From Lentimicrobium sp. (lineage in GTDB: Bacteria > Bacteroidota > Bacteroidia > Bacteroidales > Lentimicrobiaceae), in assembly GCA_023957275.1 (NCBI GenBank), contig JAMLHF010000040.1, positions 1 through 42,537 of the forward strand: a stretch of 42,537 bases of DNA, read 5' to 3'. Positions 19,867-31,811 of this stretch are shown piece after piece; the stretch's first letter is position 1; each line of letters starts with the position of its first letter. Under the pieces are notes generated by a model. It had not been told where the DNA came from, did no database searches, and saw only the letters and a program-made list of their open reading frames with translations. Made by a program: the position numbers and the translations under genes.

Positions 19867-21474
19867 ATGAAGAGGTTATTATTAATTCTGCTTATCATCT
19901 GCCATTATTCTTACCTTTTTTCTCAACCCATAGTATTGGAATGGCAAGCATGTTTTGGTACTACAGTAAAGGAGGTTGCTTATGATGTTTGTTCAACCGG
20001 AGATGGATATATTATTGTTGCAGAAAGGGAAAGTAACACTTTAGGCTCTGACATTATCCTTATAAGAACTGACTTGTATGGAAATTTGGTTTGGCAAAAA
20101 TTTATCGGAGGCACATCTTCTGATGTTCCATATCGCATATTCCCTGCAGGTAATGACTGTTACTATATTTCAGCAATTTCTGCTTCAGAAGATGGAGATA
20201 TTTCAAATAATCCATATCCTGACGGTTATGTAAATTTTTGGCTTTTTAAGATAAATGGTAGCGGTGACATTATCTGGGACAAAATGTATGGTGGAACATG
20301 TTTTGATCAAGGATGGACTGCATGCCACACTCACGATGGAGGTATGGTAAGTTTGGGTTACACTTGTAGTGACGATGGCGATATCAGCAATTATTTTGGC
20401 AGTTGGGATACCTGGTTGCTTCGCACCGACAGTCTTGGTAATAAAGTATGGGATTTCACCATAGGCACCGAATTTCTTGATTTCCCCAATGCCATCATCC
20501 AAACCTCCGACCGGGGCTTTTTGGTGGCTTCGGGCTCCATGCCTACAACCGGTGGAAATATTACCTGCACACCGTTTAACTACGAAAACTCAGATATAGT
20601 GCTGTTTAAAATAGATTCATTGGCCAATATTGAATGGCAAAGATGTATCGGGGGTAGTGAAAATGAGGGAGTTAATGATATACTTGAAACCGAAGATGGA
20701 TACATAATTGTATGTAATGTTTATTCTGCTGATGGCGATATGACAGGCTCCGGTTATCATTATGGAACTTTACCACAAGGCCACCCAGCCGGTGATATAT
20801 GGCTTGCAAAAATGGATTTTGAGGGCAATATATTATGGCACAAATGTTATGGTGGCACACACAATGATTGGTCCAACAGAATTTTACCAACCCCGGATGG
20901 TGGCTATATTGTTATCGGAGAAACCTACTCCAACGATGGGGATGTTTCGGGCAAGCACAATGCACATGGCAGTCGTTCAGACATTTGGGTTTTTAAAATT
21001 AATGCCTCGGGCGATTTGCACTGGCAAAAATGTTTTGGTGGTTTAGGCGATGAAAGTCTTTTGAATGGTGTTATTGACAATGGAGATGGCAGTTATGTTA
21101 TTGCTTCAACACTAACTGGTATTAATAGTGGTGATATGACTTGTGTAACCACCCCGTCGCCTAATTACGATATCTGGCTTATAAAATTGCGCGATACCAC
21201 AGTGGTAAGTACAAATCATTTGCCTAAGCCTGAATATGCAGTTGAGGTTTATCCCAACCCGGCAGGGGATTTTGTAATTTTCGAGTTGCAAAATTCCAAC
21301 ATTCAGGCTACAATTAATATTACCGATCTCACCGGCCGCCTGGTTACCTCGTTTCCGCTTAACGGAGAAAAAACAGTATGGCAAACAACCGGGATAAAGC
21401 CTGGGGTCTATCTGTACCGGCTGAAGACCGGGCAGGGCAGCGCCTGCGGTAAATTGATGGTTGCACCTTTGTAG
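19867..21474 (+). CDS. Secreted T9SS type A sorting domain protein with repeated WQKCFGG-type blades
   Basis: 535 residues: signal peptide (MKRLLLILLIICHYSYLFSQ), then about six to seven repeats of roughly 55-60 residues, each ending in a version of 'D-IW--K-N--G---W-KC-GG' (for example SDIWVFKINASGDLHWQKCF), as in beta-propeller-like secreted proteins. The last 80 residues are a T9SS type A tail (VYPNPAGDFVIFELQNSNIQ onward). Predicted to be exported to the surface or medium; ligand unknown. Its tail-coding DNA is almost identical to those of the next two genes. Confidence 0.85.
   Translation: MKRLLLILLIICHYSYLFSQPIVLEWQACFGTTVKEVAYDVCSTGDGYIIVAERESNTLGSDIILIRTDLYGNLVWQKFIGGTSSDVPYRIFPAGNDCYYISAISASEDGDISNNPYPDGYVNFWLFKINGSGDIIWDKMYGGTCFDQGWTACHTHDGGMVSLGYTCSDDGDISNYFGSWDTWLLRTDSLGNKVWDFTIGTEFLDFPNAIIQTSDRGFLVASGSMPTTGGNITCTPFNYENSDIVLFKIDSLANIEWQRCIGGSENEGVNDILETEDGYIIVCNVYSADGDMTGSGYHYGTLPQGHPAGDIWLAKMDFEGNILWHKCYGGTHNDWSNRILPTPDGGYIVIGETYSNDGDVSGKHNAHGSRSDIWVFKINASGDLHWQKCFGGLGDESLLNGVIDNGDGSYVIASTLTGINSGDMTCVTTPSPNYDIWLIKLRDTTVVSTNHLPKPEYAVEVYPNPAGDFVIFELQNSNIQATINITDLTGRLVTSFPLNGEKTVWQTTGIKPGVYLYRLKTGQGSACGKLMVAPL
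21319..21381 (+). repeat. T9SS-tail DNA repeat, copy 1
   Basis: This 63-base block matches 22386-22448 at 62 of 63 positions; a related copy with a few more changes lies at 23401-23451. All three encode the same part of the sorting domain (LTGRLVTSFPLNGEKTVW). Confidence 0.85.
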
Positions 21475-21539
21475 GGTAAGGTATGCCGTGTCACTGCAAT
21501 GGCCACCTATTAAATTATTCACCTATAAAACCTTTACCC

Positions 21540-22538
21540 ATGAACAAATTCAGAAAAAAAATAAGAAATTCCCTTATTCTGTTTACAATAGTGTTTTCAG
21601 GTAATGGGTATGCGCAAAGCTATATGCCGCTGCCCGATTCAAATGTACTTTGGGAAGATTGGCGTCAAAGCGCCCAGGGGTGTGATTACAATAAGGTATA
21701 CATTCCGGATAGTGATGCTGATACGGTGATCAATGGCCTGACATACCGAAAATTATATTATCATCAGGTAACTACATCCGGCCCGCCGCCAGATCCGGGA
21801 AATATTTATTTTCATGATTCTCTGTATTTTGGGGCGTTTCGGCAGGACGATTCGGGGCGGGTCTATTTACGATACTATTATCGTAATTTTTTTGAACAGG
21901 AAGAGGTATTGTATATGGATTTAACGGTTCAGCAGGGTGATACCGTAAGGCAACTTCCATGCCTTTCTACTGCCGGGCAGGATCCCCTGACAGATTTGCG
22001 TGTTGATTCTGTTGATTATGTAAGCAATGGCCCGTATCTGCGGAAACGAATATTCTTAAGAAACCTTGCTCCATTTTTTACTAGGGTTTACGATTTAGTA
22101 TGGATTGAAGGGATTGGGAGTGTATATTCAGGATTAATAAACGTTGTGGATAACGGGTGGTCCGAGTTTTATTTTATGAAATGCATGAGTGCATATGATA
22201 CAACTTTCTATCAGGGTGATTTTTTGACTGGGGGTGTTGTTAACACACAGGGTGTATGTGTTTTGCCATATACCACCGCAATACGCAAAATTGAACCTGA
22301 AGTTCCGGTTGCCGTTTACCCGCTACCTGCCAATGACTATGTTATTTTTGAACTAAACACGAATGACAGAAACGGCACGGTTACCATTACCGATCTCACC
22401 GGACGCCTGGTTACCTCGTTTCCGCTTAACGGAGAAAAAACAGTATGGGACACAAGTGGAGTGAAACCAGGGTTCTATTTGTTCCGAATCGGAAATGGAA
22501 TAGCCTGGGAAACCGGGAAATTATTAATCTCACATTAA
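21540..22538 (+). CDS. Secreted T9SS type A sorting domain protein
   Basis: 332 residues from the ATG of MNKFRKKIRNSLILFTIVF, which gives a proper signal peptide ending GYAQ; an earlier in-frame ATG would only add an unlikely leader. The passenger (about 25-255) has no motif I know. It is rich in Asp/Tyr and beta-like (SLYFGAFRQDDSGRVYLRYY). The C-terminal tail carries a T9SS type A domain (VAVYPLPANDYVIFEL ... GKLLIS). It stands 65 bases after its upstream neighbour and 12 before the next gene. Confidence 0.82.
   Translation: MNKFRKKIRNSLILFTIVFSGNGYAQSYMPLPDSNVLWEDWRQSAQGCDYNKVYIPDSDADTVINGLTYRKLYYHQVTTSGPPPDPGNIYFHDSLYFGAFRQDDSGRVYLRYYYRNFFEQEEVLYMDLTVQQGDTVRQLPCLSTAGQDPLTDLRVDSVDYVSNGPYLRKRIFLRNLAPFFTRVYDLVWIEGIGSVYSGLINVVDNGWSEFYFMKCMSAYDTTFYQGDFLTGGVVNTQGVCVLPYTTAIRKIEPEVPVAVYPLPANDYVIFELNTNDRNGTVTITDLTGRLVTSFPLNGEKTVWDTSGVKPGFYLFRIGNGIAWETGKLLISH
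22386..22448 (+). repeat. T9SS-tail DNA repeat, copy 2
   Basis: Differs from copy 1 (21319-21381) at a single position, although the flanking tail sequence and the passengers differ strongly. That points to recent conversion or cassette exchange. Confidence 0.85.
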
Positions 22539-22550
22539 AGCAATAACAAC

Positions 22551-23546
22551 ATGAAACCAAGAAAGAGAAGTATAAGGCTTTTATTACTACTTGCCCTTAT
22601 CCTGGGCGCTTTTTCATGGAATACTGACAATTTGCACGCGCAAACATGGCCAATGCCAGGCGCGACCTGGGAATATTGTATCACCGGTTGGAATGGAATG
22701 CCTGCCGGGCATCTGATTTTAGGTTTAAAAGGCGATACGATTATTAATAACAGAGCTTATAGGATAATAGGTACTATTAGTGAATCGGGTTGGAATGGAA
22801 ATAGGTCAACTTCGGCTTTAATGACAATCTATACGAGGTTTAGCAATGACTCAGTGTACCGGTTCGTGAATAACCGTGAGTATTTATACTTTAATTTTAA
22901 CAGTAGTGACGGAAATGTTTTTTCAACCTTCAGATCAGCAGGTCATTACTACAATTGGAACGACTCTGCCTGCACTTCAATACTGCCGTTAAAAACAATC
23001 GGCACTGATATGTTGAGTTTAAACGGTATGCAATTAAGGAGGTCAATACTCAGGGATACGTTGTTTAAGACTATTTATAATGTTCCTGATGAAGATGAAG
23101 TTGAATATACTCTTGTTGAACGAATCGGCATTTTAAACGGATTGCCCCTGATAAATTCGAGAGAGCCTGCCGGCTTTGGTTATGGCTGCTCGTTACCAAG
23201 CGATTATGCTTCTTACACATTAGGGAGTTATTCGGATGATGAATTTTTTGCTGTACAGTTTTTGAATTGTGAAGGAGTCGGGATTAAGGATATATCCAAT
23301 GTGTATAGAGTAGTAAAAGCATATCCTAACCCGGCAACTGATTATATTGTTTTTGAAGTACAAAATTCCCTGCCTTCAGGCACTATCACGATTTCCGATA
23401 TCACCGGCCGCCCGGTTGCCTCGTTTCCGCTTAACGGAGAAAAAACTTTATGGCAAACAACCGGGGTAAAGCCGGGGGTCTATCTGTACCGGCTGCAAAC
23501 CAAGGAGGGGAGTGCAAGCGGGAAATTGTTGATTGCACCGTTGTAA
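22551..23546 (+). CDS. Secreted T9SS type A sorting domain protein
   Basis: 331 residues: signal peptide (RLLLLLALILGAFSW, cleavage near HAQ), a 220-residue passenger with the same general style as the preceding gene (NGMPAGHLILGLKGDTIIN; NDSVYRFVNNREYLYF), and a T9SS type A tail (KAYPNPATDYIVFEVQNSLP onward, ending SGKLLIAPL). It looks like a diverged paralogue of the preceding gene. Role unknown; predicted surface protein. Confidence 0.82.
   Translation: MKPRKRSIRLLLLLALILGAFSWNTDNLHAQTWPMPGATWEYCITGWNGMPAGHLILGLKGDTIINNRAYRIIGTISESGWNGNRSTSALMTIYTRFSNDSVYRFVNNREYLYFNFNSSDGNVFSTFRSAGHYYNWNDSACTSILPLKTIGTDMLSLNGMQLRRSILRDTLFKTIYNVPDEDEVEYTLVERIGILNGLPLINSREPAGFGYGCSLPSDYASYTLGSYSDDEFFAVQFLNCEGVGIKDISNVYRVVKAYPNPATDYIVFEVQNSLPSGTITISDITGRPVASFPLNGEKTLWQTTGVKPGVYLYRLQTKEGSASGKLLIAPL
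23401..23451 (+). repeat. T9SS-tail DNA repeat, copy 3
   Basis: A somewhat more diverged copy of the same block in the third gene. Similarity to copy 1 then resumes through the next 50 bases (tail residues TTGVKPGVYLYRL). Confidence 0.7.
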
Positions 23547-29016: not shown

Positions 29017-29051
29017 GGATTTTGGATTTTGGATTTTGGATTTCGGATTTT
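29017..29051 (+). repeat. Heptamer tandem repeat directly before recQ
   Basis: GGATTTT five times (one copy with final C), beginning at the base next to the recQ ATG. The related GGATTTC-GGATT stands 11 bases before the mnmA fragment start (23734). Confidence 0.75.
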
Positions 29052-29176
29052 AGAATGTAGATTTAATTCTTCCTATTTGTATGGTTTACCGGGATTTGCA
29101 ATGATCATAACGTGGAGAACATGAGATGTAAAAGCTGAATACTGCTTTTCGGTCCGGTAGCGGTTTACTGATTGTT

Positions 29177-29240
29177 ATTCAGAAAAACAGGCCTGATATT
29201 CTGAATATAATCAGAAAAACAGGCCAAAAAATCTGAATAT
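29177..29240 (+). repeat. Paired 32-bp repeat, downstream flank of the ATPase gene
   Basis: Two head-to-tail 32-base units (29177, 29209), each with core TCAGAAAAACAGGCC and ending in TCTGAATAT. Within the first, TATTCAGAA (29176-29184) and TTCTGAATA (29199-29207) are inverted. The same pair is on the other side of the ATPase gene. The remaining intergenic sequence (29052-29176, 29241-29286) shows nothing further. Confidence 0.85.
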
Positions 29241-29286
29241 CTGTTATAACATACTTAATTGAACAGTCACATTAATGAATCTATTA

Positions 29287-30429
29287 TCATTCAGGGTCTG
29301 ATCCGGTAAAGGATTCATAGTTTTCTTTGTTTACCAGCAGGGTTTGATGCTGAGGATAGGCTTCGAGAAATGAAGCAGGGAACCTGTTCCTGGTCTCTTT
29401 CCATTTTATCTCATATGCATAAAGAACGCCATCCTGCTCTTCGATGTAATCGATTTCGGCCTGATCATGCGTCCTCCAGAAATAGGTATTCGGGTACGCT
29501 GCCGTGTAATGGTTTCTTTTCATGCGTTCTGAAAGCAAAAAATTCTCCCATAATGCACCTTTATCCAGGCGGAATTCGAACGGTGCAAAGTTGCTGATCA
29601 GCACATTTCTTATCCCATTATCGATGAAATAGTACTTTTTCCCTTTCTTGATCTCATTGCGCATATTTCTGTTCAGCGCAGGCAGCTTGTATATTACATG
29701 GGTTTTTTCAAGCAGATCAATGTATTTTTCTACGGTATTGCTATCAATATTGCCAATGGTATTTGACAATTCATTATAGCTGACTTCATTGCCGGTCTGA
29801 AAAGCCAGTGATTGAAGGAGTTTCTGGAGCTGAGCGGGTTTTCTGATCCCTTCGAATTTCAGGATATCCTTGTACAGATAACTTTGGGCTATTTCAATCA
29901 GAATTTCTTTTTCATACCCGGGATTGTTGATTACTTCGGGGTAGGACCCGAAAATAAGTCTGTTTTCAAGACTTCTTCTGGCTTCGAGAATGCTTGTATG
30001 ATTTACCAGTTCATTGTAACTTATCGGAAACAGGTAGAAGGTCCGCTTTCTTCCGGTAAGAGGTTCCTGCATCTGATTCATCAGATCAAAAGCGGATGAT
30101 CCGGTGGCTATTATCTGCAGCCCGGGTTTCGTATCGTGCAGAAGTTTCAGTTTTAATCCGATATCAGGTACCTGCTGTGCCTCATCAATGATAACAAGGC
30201 GGGTATCATTCCCGATCAGGTGGAGGAGTCGTGTGCTGGTGTCAGCCAGGGAAAGCTCGCTGAAGATATCAGCTTCATCGGCATTCAGCCAGATTGTTTT
30301 TACCTGTAATGATTCCACTACCTTTTTCAACAAGGTTGTTTTTCCTACCTGACGGGCTCCGAGCAGCAGGATTATCTTGCTTTTAAAGCAGGCATTTTCA
30401 ATCGTTTTCTGAAGGGTACGGGTTATCAT
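29287..30429 (-). CDS. AAA-type ATPase with DUF4143 C-terminal domain
   Basis: 380 residues. Walker A is GARQVGKTT at 24-32 and Walker B with the family-specific extension is LVIIDEAQQVPDIGLKLK at about 78-95. Sensor segment IIATGSSAFDL follows. The C-terminal half contains the DUF4143 region with a winged-helix-like part (NELSNTIGNIDSNTVEKYID), the motif YFIDNGIRNVLI and a nuclease-like D-x-E-x-K ending (QAEIDYIEEQDGVLYAYEIKW). Such ATPases are widespread, often in many copies per genome, and their role is unsettled. This one is bracketed by identical paired repeats 41 bases before its start and 46 bases after its stop. Confidence 0.9.
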   Translation of the reverse strand: MITRTLQKTIENACFKSKIILLLGARQVGKTTLLKKVVESLQVKTIWLNADEADIFSELSLADTSTRLLHLIGNDTRLVIIDEAQQVPDIGLKLKLLHDTKPGLQIIATGSSAFDLMNQMQEPLTGRKRTFYLFPISYNELVNHTSILEARRSLENRLIFGSYPEVINNPGYEKEILIEIAQSYLYKDILKFEGIRKPAQLQKLLQSLAFQTGNEVSYNELSNTIGNIDSNTVEKYIDLLEKTHVIYKLPALNRNMRNEIKKGKKYYFIDNGIRNVLISNFAPFEFRLDKGALWENFLLSERMKRNHYTAAYPNTYFWRTHDQAEIDYIEEQDGVLYAYEIKWKETRNRFPASFLEAYPQHQTLLVNKENYESFTGSDPE

Positions 30430-30470
30430 GAGTTCTCTTTATCTGCAAAAATACGCAAACATTTTATAAT

Positions 30471-30534
30471 ATTCAGAAAAACAGGCCGGATATTCTGAAT
30501 ATAATCAGAAAAATGGGCCTGAAATTCCGAAAAA
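30471..30534 (+). repeat. Paired 32-bp repeat, upstream flank of the ATPase gene
   Basis: Two head-to-tail 32-base units (30471, 30503). The first has the core ATTCAGAAAAACAGGCC exactly as on the other flank. ATATTCAGAA (30469-30478) and TTCTGAATAT (30493-30502) form a perfect 10-base inverted repeat. The orientation is the same as the downstream pair. It lies between the ATPase start and the 3' end of the spmAB-like gene. Confidence 0.85.
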
Positions 30535-30578
30535 GTATGTTTGTAAGGATATAATCACTTCAGATCCCGGGCTGCAGA

Positions 30579-31811
30579 TCAGTGAAAAAACAAATACGCT
30601 ACAAAAATGGCGGCTATTACTCCGGCCAGGTCGGCCAGCAGGCCGGCGGTAATGGCGTAACGGGTCTTTTTTATACCGACTGATCCGAAATAAACGGCGA
30701 CGATATAAAAGGTGGTATCGGCCGCGCCCTGGAAAACACAGGATAACCTTCCGGCAAATGAATCCGCGCCATATTGTTTCATGGTGTCCACCATCATGCC
30801 TCTTGCGCCTGAGCCGCTGAGCGGTTTCATAAAGGCGGTGGGAAGGGCATCCACAAAGTCAGTGTTCATCCCCAGGGCGGCAAAACCGCTTCCTATCCCC
30901 TGTACCAGAAAGTCCATGGCACCACAGGTCCTGAAAACACCCACAGCCACCAGTATGGCGACCAGGTAAGGGATGATCCGGATGCTGATGCTGAAACCTT
31001 CTTTTGCCCCTTCGATAAACGACTCATAAACGTTGATCCGTTTGAAAAGCCCCAGGATAATGAATGAAAAAATGATCCCGAAAAGGATAAGATTTCCGGC
31101 TACGGAGGAAATCACCGTCACCTGTTCCTGAGAGATGGTGCTGAAGTACCAGATAATGGACGCGATCAGCAGTGTAAATCCTCCCAGGTAAGCGAGAATC
31201 ACCCTGTTGAACAGGTTTATTTTCTGAAATGCCGATACCGCGATAATTCCGGTAAGTGTGGAGCAGAAGGTCGCCAGCAGGATAGGAATAAACACATCGG
31301 AGGGGTCGGCGGCACCCAGCTGCGCCCGGTAAACCATAATGCTCACGGGGATCAGGGTAAGCCCTGACGCATTCAGTACCAGGAACATGATCATGGCATT
31401 GCTTGCCGTATCCTTGTCTTTATTCAGTTCCTGGAGCTGGGTCATCGCCTTGAGCCCCAGGGGAGTTGCGGCATTGTCGAGCCCCAGCAGGTTGGCGGCG
31501 ATATTCATCATAATGGATCCGCTGGCCGGGTGGCCTTTGGGGATTTCGGGGAACAGCCGGCTGAAGAGCGGCCCGACTGCCTTTGACATCAGGTTGACAA
31601 TACCTCCGGATTCACCTACCTTCATCAGTCCCATCCACAGGGTCATCACCCCTGTCAGCCCCAGGGATATTTCAAATCCGGTCCTGGCCATGTCAAAGGT
31701 ACTGTTCATCATTTCTGGGAAAATAGACACATCTCCCATGAAAATCAAGCGGAACAGCCCTACAATAAAAGCGATGATAAAAAATGCTACCCAGATGTAA
31801 TTCAGAACCAT
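30579..31811 (-). CDS. SpmA/SpmB fusion, nucleoside-recognition (Gate) membrane protein
   Basis: 410 residues from the ATG of MVLNYIWVAFFIIAF. An upstream TTG would fall inside the candidate promoter. The N-terminal half matches SpmA (GFEISLGLTGVMTLWMGLMK; MNIAANLLGLDNAATPLGL) and the C-terminal half SpmB (FSISIRIIPYLVAILVAVGV; KPLSGSGARGMMVDTM; CVFQGAADTTFYIVAVYFG). Each contains a Gate domain of hydrophobic helices, about ten helices in all. In spore formers the two are separate proteins needed for spore core dehydration. Fused forms occur in non-sporulating bacteria, probably as transporters of unknown substrate. Confidence 0.9.
   Translation of the reverse strand: MVLNYIWVAFFIIAFIVGLFRLIFMGDVSIFPEMMNSTFDMARTGFEISLGLTGVMTLWMGLMKVGESGGIVNLMSKAVGPLFSRLFPEIPKGHPASGSIMMNIAANLLGLDNAATPLGLKAMTQLQELNKDKDTASNAMIMFLVLNASGLTLIPVSIMVYRAQLGAADPSDVFIPILLATFCSTLTGIIAVSAFQKINLFNRVILAYLGGFTLLIASIIWYFSTISQEQVTVISSVAGNLILFGIIFSFIILGLFKRINVYESFIEGAKEGFSISIRIIPYLVAILVAVGVFRTCGAMDFLVQGIGSGFAALGMNTDFVDALPTAFMKPLSGSGARGMMVDTMKQYGADSFAGRLSCVFQGAADTTFYIVAVYFGSVGIKKTRYAITAGLLADLAGVIAAIFVAYLFFH

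Follow-up and report, generated by a model that had tools for sequence, protein, structure and literature searches.

A DUF4143 ATPase gene of Lentimicrobium and its upstream array of 32-bp repeats probably form a self-recognising mobile unit

Why does a single ATPase gene in a Lentimicrobium genome stand between two pairs of palindromic repeats, and do gene and repeats belong together? The locus lies in a 42,537-nt stretch of DNA that was analysed as a whole (the window). The gene, an ORF of 380 aa on the minus strand (29287..30429), is preceded by an array of two palindromic units with a period of 32 bp (30470..30531, minus strand) and followed by a second array in the same orientation (29176..29237, minus strand). 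The core palindrome CTGATTATATTCAG lies at 30495..30508 in the upstream array, where the motif statistics place a GATT core with T at base -1, and at 29201..29214 in the downstream array (both minus strand). The original prediction, two pairs of palindromic 32-bp units flanking the gene in one orientation, is borne out in the form of 62-nt direct repeats, each made of two head-to-tail palindromic units spaced by 32 bp, with 1294 nt from start to start. The copies had been called identical and placed 41–46 bases from the coding ends; they are 89% identical, differing at 7 of 62 positions, and lie 40 nt from the start codon and 49 nt past the stop codon. With up to three mismatches the core TCAGAAAAACAGGCC is matched eight times in the window, against 1.82 expected, a number reached in 0 of 100 shuffles of the window. 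Six of the matches are inside the repeats and the other two are isolated three-mismatch matches elsewhere in the window. The 28-nt unit, again with at most three mismatches, occurs twice in the 4,408,024-base genome, both times at this locus, and all five rows of a looser repeat pattern in this genome fall within the four units of the locus. The window shuffles, together with the 32-bp lag statistics and the direct-repeat controls given below, rule out a chance repeat. An RNA hairpin or terminator was likewise rejected, since the upstream array precedes the start codon and the likely promoter; a terminator scan of 29050-30650 returned two sites, both within the ORF and none at the arrays. The promoter-like element TATTTTTG (30446..30453, minus strand) resembles the -7 promoter element of Bacteroidota.

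The encoded protein matches the Pfam models AAA_14 and DUF4143 with 105 and 143.9 bits (curated cut-offs 27 and 28.1) and the PADLOC model PDLC04789, which stands for PDC-S01, with 525.8 bits over almost its full length. An AlphaFold2 model built from 79 sequences (mean pLDDT 92.4, pTM 0.90) is, in our reading, composed of an AAA+ part (residues ~1–145), a winged helix (~198–268) with a predicted recognition helix at residues 230–242 (codons at 29704..29742, minus strand), and a PD-(D/E)XK-like C-terminus (~287–368). The winged-helix-like and nuclease-like parts that had been anticipated from the translation fit this model. In the 79 proteins, G29, K30 and T32 of Walker A, D82 and E83 of the DE-box, and E325, D327 and K342 are invariant, and E340 is conserved in at least 90%; the last four residues mark the nuclease-like region (29326..29571, minus strand). 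A sequence search for solved structures gave weak AAA matches only. The best solved match to the model in Foldseek was the archaeal AAA+ ATPase SSO1545 (PDB 2fna; E 4.6e-09, TM 0.52), yet the identity is 14%, and we know of no array or mobility of SSO1545. A comparison with SSO1545 has also been made for a domain of IniR, an AAA+ regulator of mycobacteria that is reported to bind a promoter (PMC5760070). Domain searches of the unit's one ORF matched ATPase-type and DUF4143 models only and no transposase, integrase or recombinase domain, and a mobile element of known kind was rejected for want of a transposase or integrase domain in the unit. DUF4143 genes were expected to be abundant and are so, with 14 matches, some partial, in the window's genome.

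The repeats of the window are one case of a hallmark of the sub-family to which the gene belongs. We collected 162 distinct members, much of the material being MAGs, and scanned the 180 bp upstream for tandem repeats at lags of 20–60 with a threshold of 19/24 matches; L168 (the same as L021), L184 (the same as L158), L019 (near L018) and L160 (near L159) were dropped before counting. A repeat at lag 32 was present in 74 of 161 upstream regions (46.0%) and one at lag 33 in 5.0% (either lag, 82/161), and every other lag between 20 and 60 in 0–0.6%. Lag 32 was found in 0.1% of 2,699 distant windows and in 4.4% of 158 downstream regions. A new set comprised 54 members from 31 of 296 genomes of the phylum (E <= 1e-90), further copies and three plasmid or phage records; with L285 taken out as identical to L082, 27 of the remaining 53 peak at lag 32 and three at lag 33, and no other lag rises above the threshold. 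The core GAWTNNAWTC is found in 61 of 109 upstream regions versus 41 of 2,024 distant windows. The best 14-pair arm of the arrays scores 11.2 on average versus 9.1 in shuffles (n = 82), and 32 of 82 arrays, versus 0 of 82 shuffles, are strongly palindromic (at least 12/14). Similarity of arrays tracks similarity of proteins (Mantel r 0.51, n = 82). The upstream array is the general rule; flanking repeats that overlap it are confined to 12 of 156 members. Of 29 loci of other DUF4143 sub-families in ten genomes of other groups, two peak above the threshold at lag 32 and two at lag 33, and in the window's genome L006 and L010 score 19/24 at lag 32 as well as the window gene (L003); in view of such matches outside the sub-family, the hallmark is strongest in it and not strictly confined to it. 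Two further loci may be mentioned here. Plasmid CP054202 of Bacteroides uniformis (L281) has a perfect 32-bp upstream repeat (24/24) before a frame that stops soon after its start, and another DUF4143 gene of the window's genome, L014 (G000:C66:1-3403), has tandem repeats of ~120 bp on both sides with CACCTGACAGGTT...AACCTGTTAGGTG palindromes.

The arrays end at a median of -40, beside the start codon, and resemble operators in that they repeat a site, in many cases a palindrome, at the promoter of the gene that they accompany. One may ask, then, whether the array is an autoregulatory operator and nothing else, in which case gene and operator would have spread by ordinary horizontal transfer and host recombination and been kept whole by selection, e.g., as a defence gene, the direct repeats being by-products. 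The position by the start codon is what this account would expect; it also draws on other DUF4143 sub-families, in which palindromes occur close to the start but for the most part lack the 32-bp period (judged by eye), on the listing of the family by PADLOC as the defence candidate PDC-S01, and on orphan arrays that remain where the gene is absent. We nevertheless consider it unlikely, for reasons that lie in the edges of the moved segments and the long duplications described below.

The strongest result of this study is a covariation between residue and base, which bears on the earlier suggestion that the gene product itself recognises the repeats. It was examined in 60 of the 162 members, those with a GATT-like core at the motif threshold, and for base -1, picked after a first scan of the two bases outside the core (48 members) in which protein columns 231 and 230 ranked highest. 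For base -1, column 231 has an MI z of 16.8 and the next, column 230, 6.4; bases -2 and -3 gave no single outstanding column in the 60 members. Lys at residue 231 goes with G (29/29), Glu with C (8/8), Gln with C (7/7) and Asn, the residue of the window protein (codon 29737-29739, minus strand), with T (6/8). Between proteins of less than 60% identity, the base is shared in 97.1% of pairs with the same residue 231 (n = 415) and in 15.9% of pairs with different residues (n = 1238), the mean identity being equal in the two classes (0.512 and 0.513). Of the 54 new loci, 11 have the motif and nine of these a residue in the code, which gave the right base in 8/9, or in 7/8 without the duplicate L285. 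Within the window's own clade, Asn-T (window), Ser-C (G007) and Ala-G (L079) shift together at 68–76% identity. Clustering at 60% identity leaves 15 groups, and the number of independent residue–base changes is therefore moderate. The suggestion of self-recognition is supported by this pattern, new loci included: very probably each protein binds the array next to its own gene, and residue 231, at the N-terminal end of the recognition helix as predicted, would read the base beside the GATT core.

The same covariation bears on a second account, by which mobility would be supplied in trans, through a transposase or recombinase of conventional type that recognises the array. The single ORF of the unit has no recombinase domain of known kind, which is compatible with such a helper, and so is the presence of relatives on 545 plasmid records (all below 60% identity; 170 from Acinetobacter) and on phage-like records, but the array base follows a residue of the unit's own protein and not of a shared enzyme, and the duplications are long and variable with no fixed length; we regard this account as improbable.

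Among 99 relatives, 53 had a match at E <= 1e-30, and four further orthologues with 75–96% identity to the window gene were recovered (G005, G016, G012 and G007). Orthologues lacking the repeats, named beforehand as evidence against a repeat-bound unit, are not found at this level, as 4/4 genes of at least 75% identity have repeats on both sides. The next relatives (L079, L283 and L284; 65–68% identity) do not have arrays on both sides, L284 sitting between a long repeat of another kind. The repeat pattern is found in 7 of 19 genomes of the genus, with the drifted copy of G007 missed by the pattern. It flanks the gene in four of the seven (G000, which is the window's genome, G005, G012 and G016), in agreement with the expected association, is present in G001 as one pair with no ATPase gene, and is seen in G017 and G018 as three single three-mismatch matches away from any family gene. 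Occurrence of the repeat apart from the ATPase, also named as adverse, is seen in these three genomes. A reversed-pattern control gave one match, in G012. One of the three single matches, at G017:C29:11862-11888 (L057), looks like a worn orphan copy of the window's repeat pair; it lies between genes, with no family gene nearby.

The orthologues in G005, G016 and G012 occupy the same site as the window gene, adjoining a spmAB-like gene (we assign this name, as well as recQ, nifU, scpA and kbl, from our own reading of the translations). The ATPase of G016 is 96% identical to that of the window, its neighbour gene only 88%. The spmAB-like gene is present in 8/19 genomes of the genus; the partial matches in G004 and G014 were kept outside the site comparison. 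At this site, the search for an empty locus that had been proposed was successful: G001 has the spmAB-like gene, then one repeat pair, then the recQ-side flank, and no ATPase gene. Over its 62 positions the pair has one difference to the upstream copy of the window and six to the downstream copy, while the sequence on its right matches what follows the downstream copy in the window, the arrangement that recombination between two pairs would produce. As the gene is present at this site in G005, G012 and G016, we favour excision as the direction of the event over an ancestral empty site. In G006, the same site has neither gene nor repeat. Beside the empty site of G001 (L055), the recQ-like sequence is cut to its 5´ part where the window has a 718-aa ORF, and the contig continues into a kbl-like gene.

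The orthologue in G007 (75% identical) is in a different place. Its flanks are unrelated to those of the window, without similarity outside the array and the ORF, and the common stretch runs from 1400 to 2622 in L021 and from 30531 to 29308 in the window. This stretch (29308..30531, minus strand), comprising array, promoter region and ORF, is the proposed mobile unit. That the locus is fixed, mobility being an illusion and the gene having been lost once in G001 through a chance deletion by homology between two operators, is already disfavoured and in our opinion highly improbable, for although G000, G005, G012 and G016 share the site by the spmAB-like gene and 62-bp repeats can delete by homology, only array and ORF are common to the orthologue found elsewhere in G007, and near-identical units occur in unrelated flanks in other clades.

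Arrays without a gene are found at other sites as well. In G012 and G013, a member adjoins a nifU-like gene; at the corresponding site in G000, G001, G005 and G006 the gene is absent and matching repeats are kept, as a pair in three of these genomes and as one unit in G005, with no gene remnant in a tblastn search of the four. Beside this orphan array stand three GGGATTNNATTCC-type palindromes ~40 bp apart, also without an ATPase gene (L241 in G000, L242 in G001, L231 in G006, and L229 in G005 with one of the three worn), and the nifU-like stretches examined in G018 and G014 have neither matching repeats nor GGGATTNNATTCC-type units. Past the scpA-like gene, G012 has one palindrome that matches the array of the member in G010, and no gene; no such palindrome was seen at this site in the six other relatives compared. 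G004, at another site, has neither gene nor array. The nifU-like and scpA-like sites indicate that an array can remain after its gene has gone, or be in place before the gene arrives; the persistence of orphan arrays is also allowed by the operator-only account.

Signs of movement come from near-identical units in different surroundings. L173 (G013) and L176 (G018) share 97.7% identity over a stretch that begins at -122 and ends 6 nt short of the stop codon, and L134 and L138 are 96.8% identical from about -100, each pair in unrelated flanks; L210 and L211, both in one genome, are 94.2% identical from about -137, with short flank matches only. In these three pairs the homology begins at or just outside the array and ends 2–20 nt before the stop codon, past the codons for the C-terminal N-Y/F-x-x-F motif. 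Taking nine non-allelic pairs together, the left edge is at -99 to -137, i.e. at or just outside the array, in 5/9, and in 8/9 no more than 25 nt separate the right edge from the stop codon. In L087/L118, L200/L203, L199/L203 and L107/L119 (73–80% identical) the homology starts at -37 to +36 and not at the array, and in these diverged pairs only the gene is recognisably shared. The array and ORF thus appear likely to move as one unit. Together with the empty site in G001 and the different location in G007, these pairs favour the mobile or excisable unit that had been proposed.

Insertion is also suggested by repeats in the flanks. Flanking direct repeats with a score of at least 50 are found in 37 of 156 members and in 0 of 524 control intervals, which were drawn from the same loci at comparable length (28/103 versus 3/520 in an earlier draw), the other 119 members having no flanking repeat above the threshold. 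Twelve of the 37 overlap the array position, as in the window (one of them, L132, without a 32-bp array), and 25 lie elsewhere. The count retains several weak or less clean cases, namely L132 and L135, which have low-complexity tandem repeats, L024, L175 and L153, in which the repeat is present more than once per locus, and L083, whose copies are 78% alike and could be paralogous gene ends. Direct repeats near the ends of the unit are seen in L117, L143, L119, L102 and L158, the last being outside the count for a flank that is too short. The lengths vary from 23 to ~190 bp, with 335 nt in L083. In four of ten loci examined the end of a host gene is duplicated, and the other six are without this pattern. 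In L143, L115 and L083 the end of a long ORF lies in the upstream copy, with a mere fragment downstream, and the order is reversed in L169. Both copies of L169 map to a single position in 9 of 13 scpA-like loci of relatives, and the other four match the intact copy only. To judge from their sequence, the flanking duplications have the form of long target-site duplications. Misassembly may be the source of such repeats in single MAGs; isolates have them too (Runella limosa L119 and Lacihabitans L099, and Pedobacter foliorum L111 with a 23-nt repeat below the count threshold). L045 is nested: an array repeat flanks the gene on either side, and an outer direct repeat of ~90 nt encloses the whole.

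These observations weigh against an array that is an operator only. The left edge of the shared segment falls at or just outside the array in 5/9 pairs and the right edge close to the stop codon in 8/9, the long duplications need an insertion process, and in the closest relatives of the window the arrays are found downstream of the gene as well.

We return to the reading that the gene and its upstream 32-bp-spaced array are a single self-recognising mobile unit, which is probably correct and draws on features observable in the genomes themselves: the hallmark array, the covariation, near-identical units in unrelated flanks, the duplications and the empty sites. In such a unit, the winged helix of an AAA+/PD-(D/E)XK-like protein would bind the repeats, residue 231 reading the base by the GATT core, and the spacing of 32 bp, about three helical turns, would place neighbouring protomers on one face of the DNA. 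As the array lies just before the promoter, the protein would probably repress its own gene, and autorepression is plausible from this position. The left end of the unit would be the outer edge of the array and the right end that of the ORF. A new insertion would bring in both and often leave a long and variable target duplication, which could keep a gene that is hit near its end intact. In the closest relatives of the window, recombination between the two arrays would then remove the gene and leave one array, as in G001. Several observations count against it: most members (119/156) have no flanking repeat above the threshold, the duplications vary widely in length, the 32-bp period is rare downstream of the gene, fewer than half of the arrays are strongly palindromic, the code covers 60 of 162 members and has its misses, the homology of the more diverged pairs starts at the gene, and no circle or excision junction was seen. 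Whether the ATPase/nuclease catalyses the movement is speculative, and we think it possible without holding it to be the likelier case. One intriguing version, which we put forward tentatively, is a novel class of mobile element with one gene, whose AAA+/winged-helix/PD-(D/E)XK product would itself act as the recombinase, assembling on the left-end array and inserting array and ORF with long staggered duplications. Such a gene would be abundant in Bacteroidota, and perhaps in further phyla, without having been recognised as mobile.

The unit is reminiscent of several known systems and coincides with none of those compared. Insertion sequences and MITEs share with it the format of a single-gene mobile unit of ~1.2 kb. 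Here, however, there is no transposase domain, and the duplications, from 23 to ~190 bp and more, are not short and of fixed length. As to terminal inverted repeats, inverted matches between the two flanks are mostly at the palindromic arrays. Duplications so long and so widely varying are unlike those of any transposase known to us. Tn7-like systems with TnsA/TnsB/TnsC similarly combine PD-(D/E)XK nuclease and AAA+ parts with tandem binding sites at the ends; the window unit differs in having one polypeptide, no DDE transposase, no fixed 5-bp duplication and an array mostly at one end. The array-gene-array arrangement versus the single array of G001 is like attL/attR versus attB of a site-specific integrative element only in form, as the unit has no integrase. 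Among the closest described systems is PDC-S01, the candidate defence ATPase of PADLOC with AAA_14 and DUF4143, which the window protein matches over nearly its whole length; its description, in the part accessible, mentions no cognate repeats, mobile unit or recognition code. PDC-S01 is reported to rank fourth in frequency among the defence-type systems of prokaryotes (PMC12988326), and another paper has DUF4143 in a table row (PMC4406477). A literature search that covered few subscription papers and no preprints found nothing on an array, code or mobility of the AAA_14/DUF4143 family.

DUF4143 ATPases are common but unexplained, and a self-recognised array with a residue-to-base code offers a concrete handle on them. 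The code predicts part of the DNA ligand of sub-family members from sequence, and the array makes binding, autoregulation and excision directly testable. They also raise the question of whether the family serves in defence, is mobile, or combines the two; a defence role is neither supported nor excluded by our data. Apart from the ATPase locus, the window has at 21310-23545 three consecutive ORFs with a common 164-nt 3´ end, 71–85% identical, which is probably a shared sorting-domain end.
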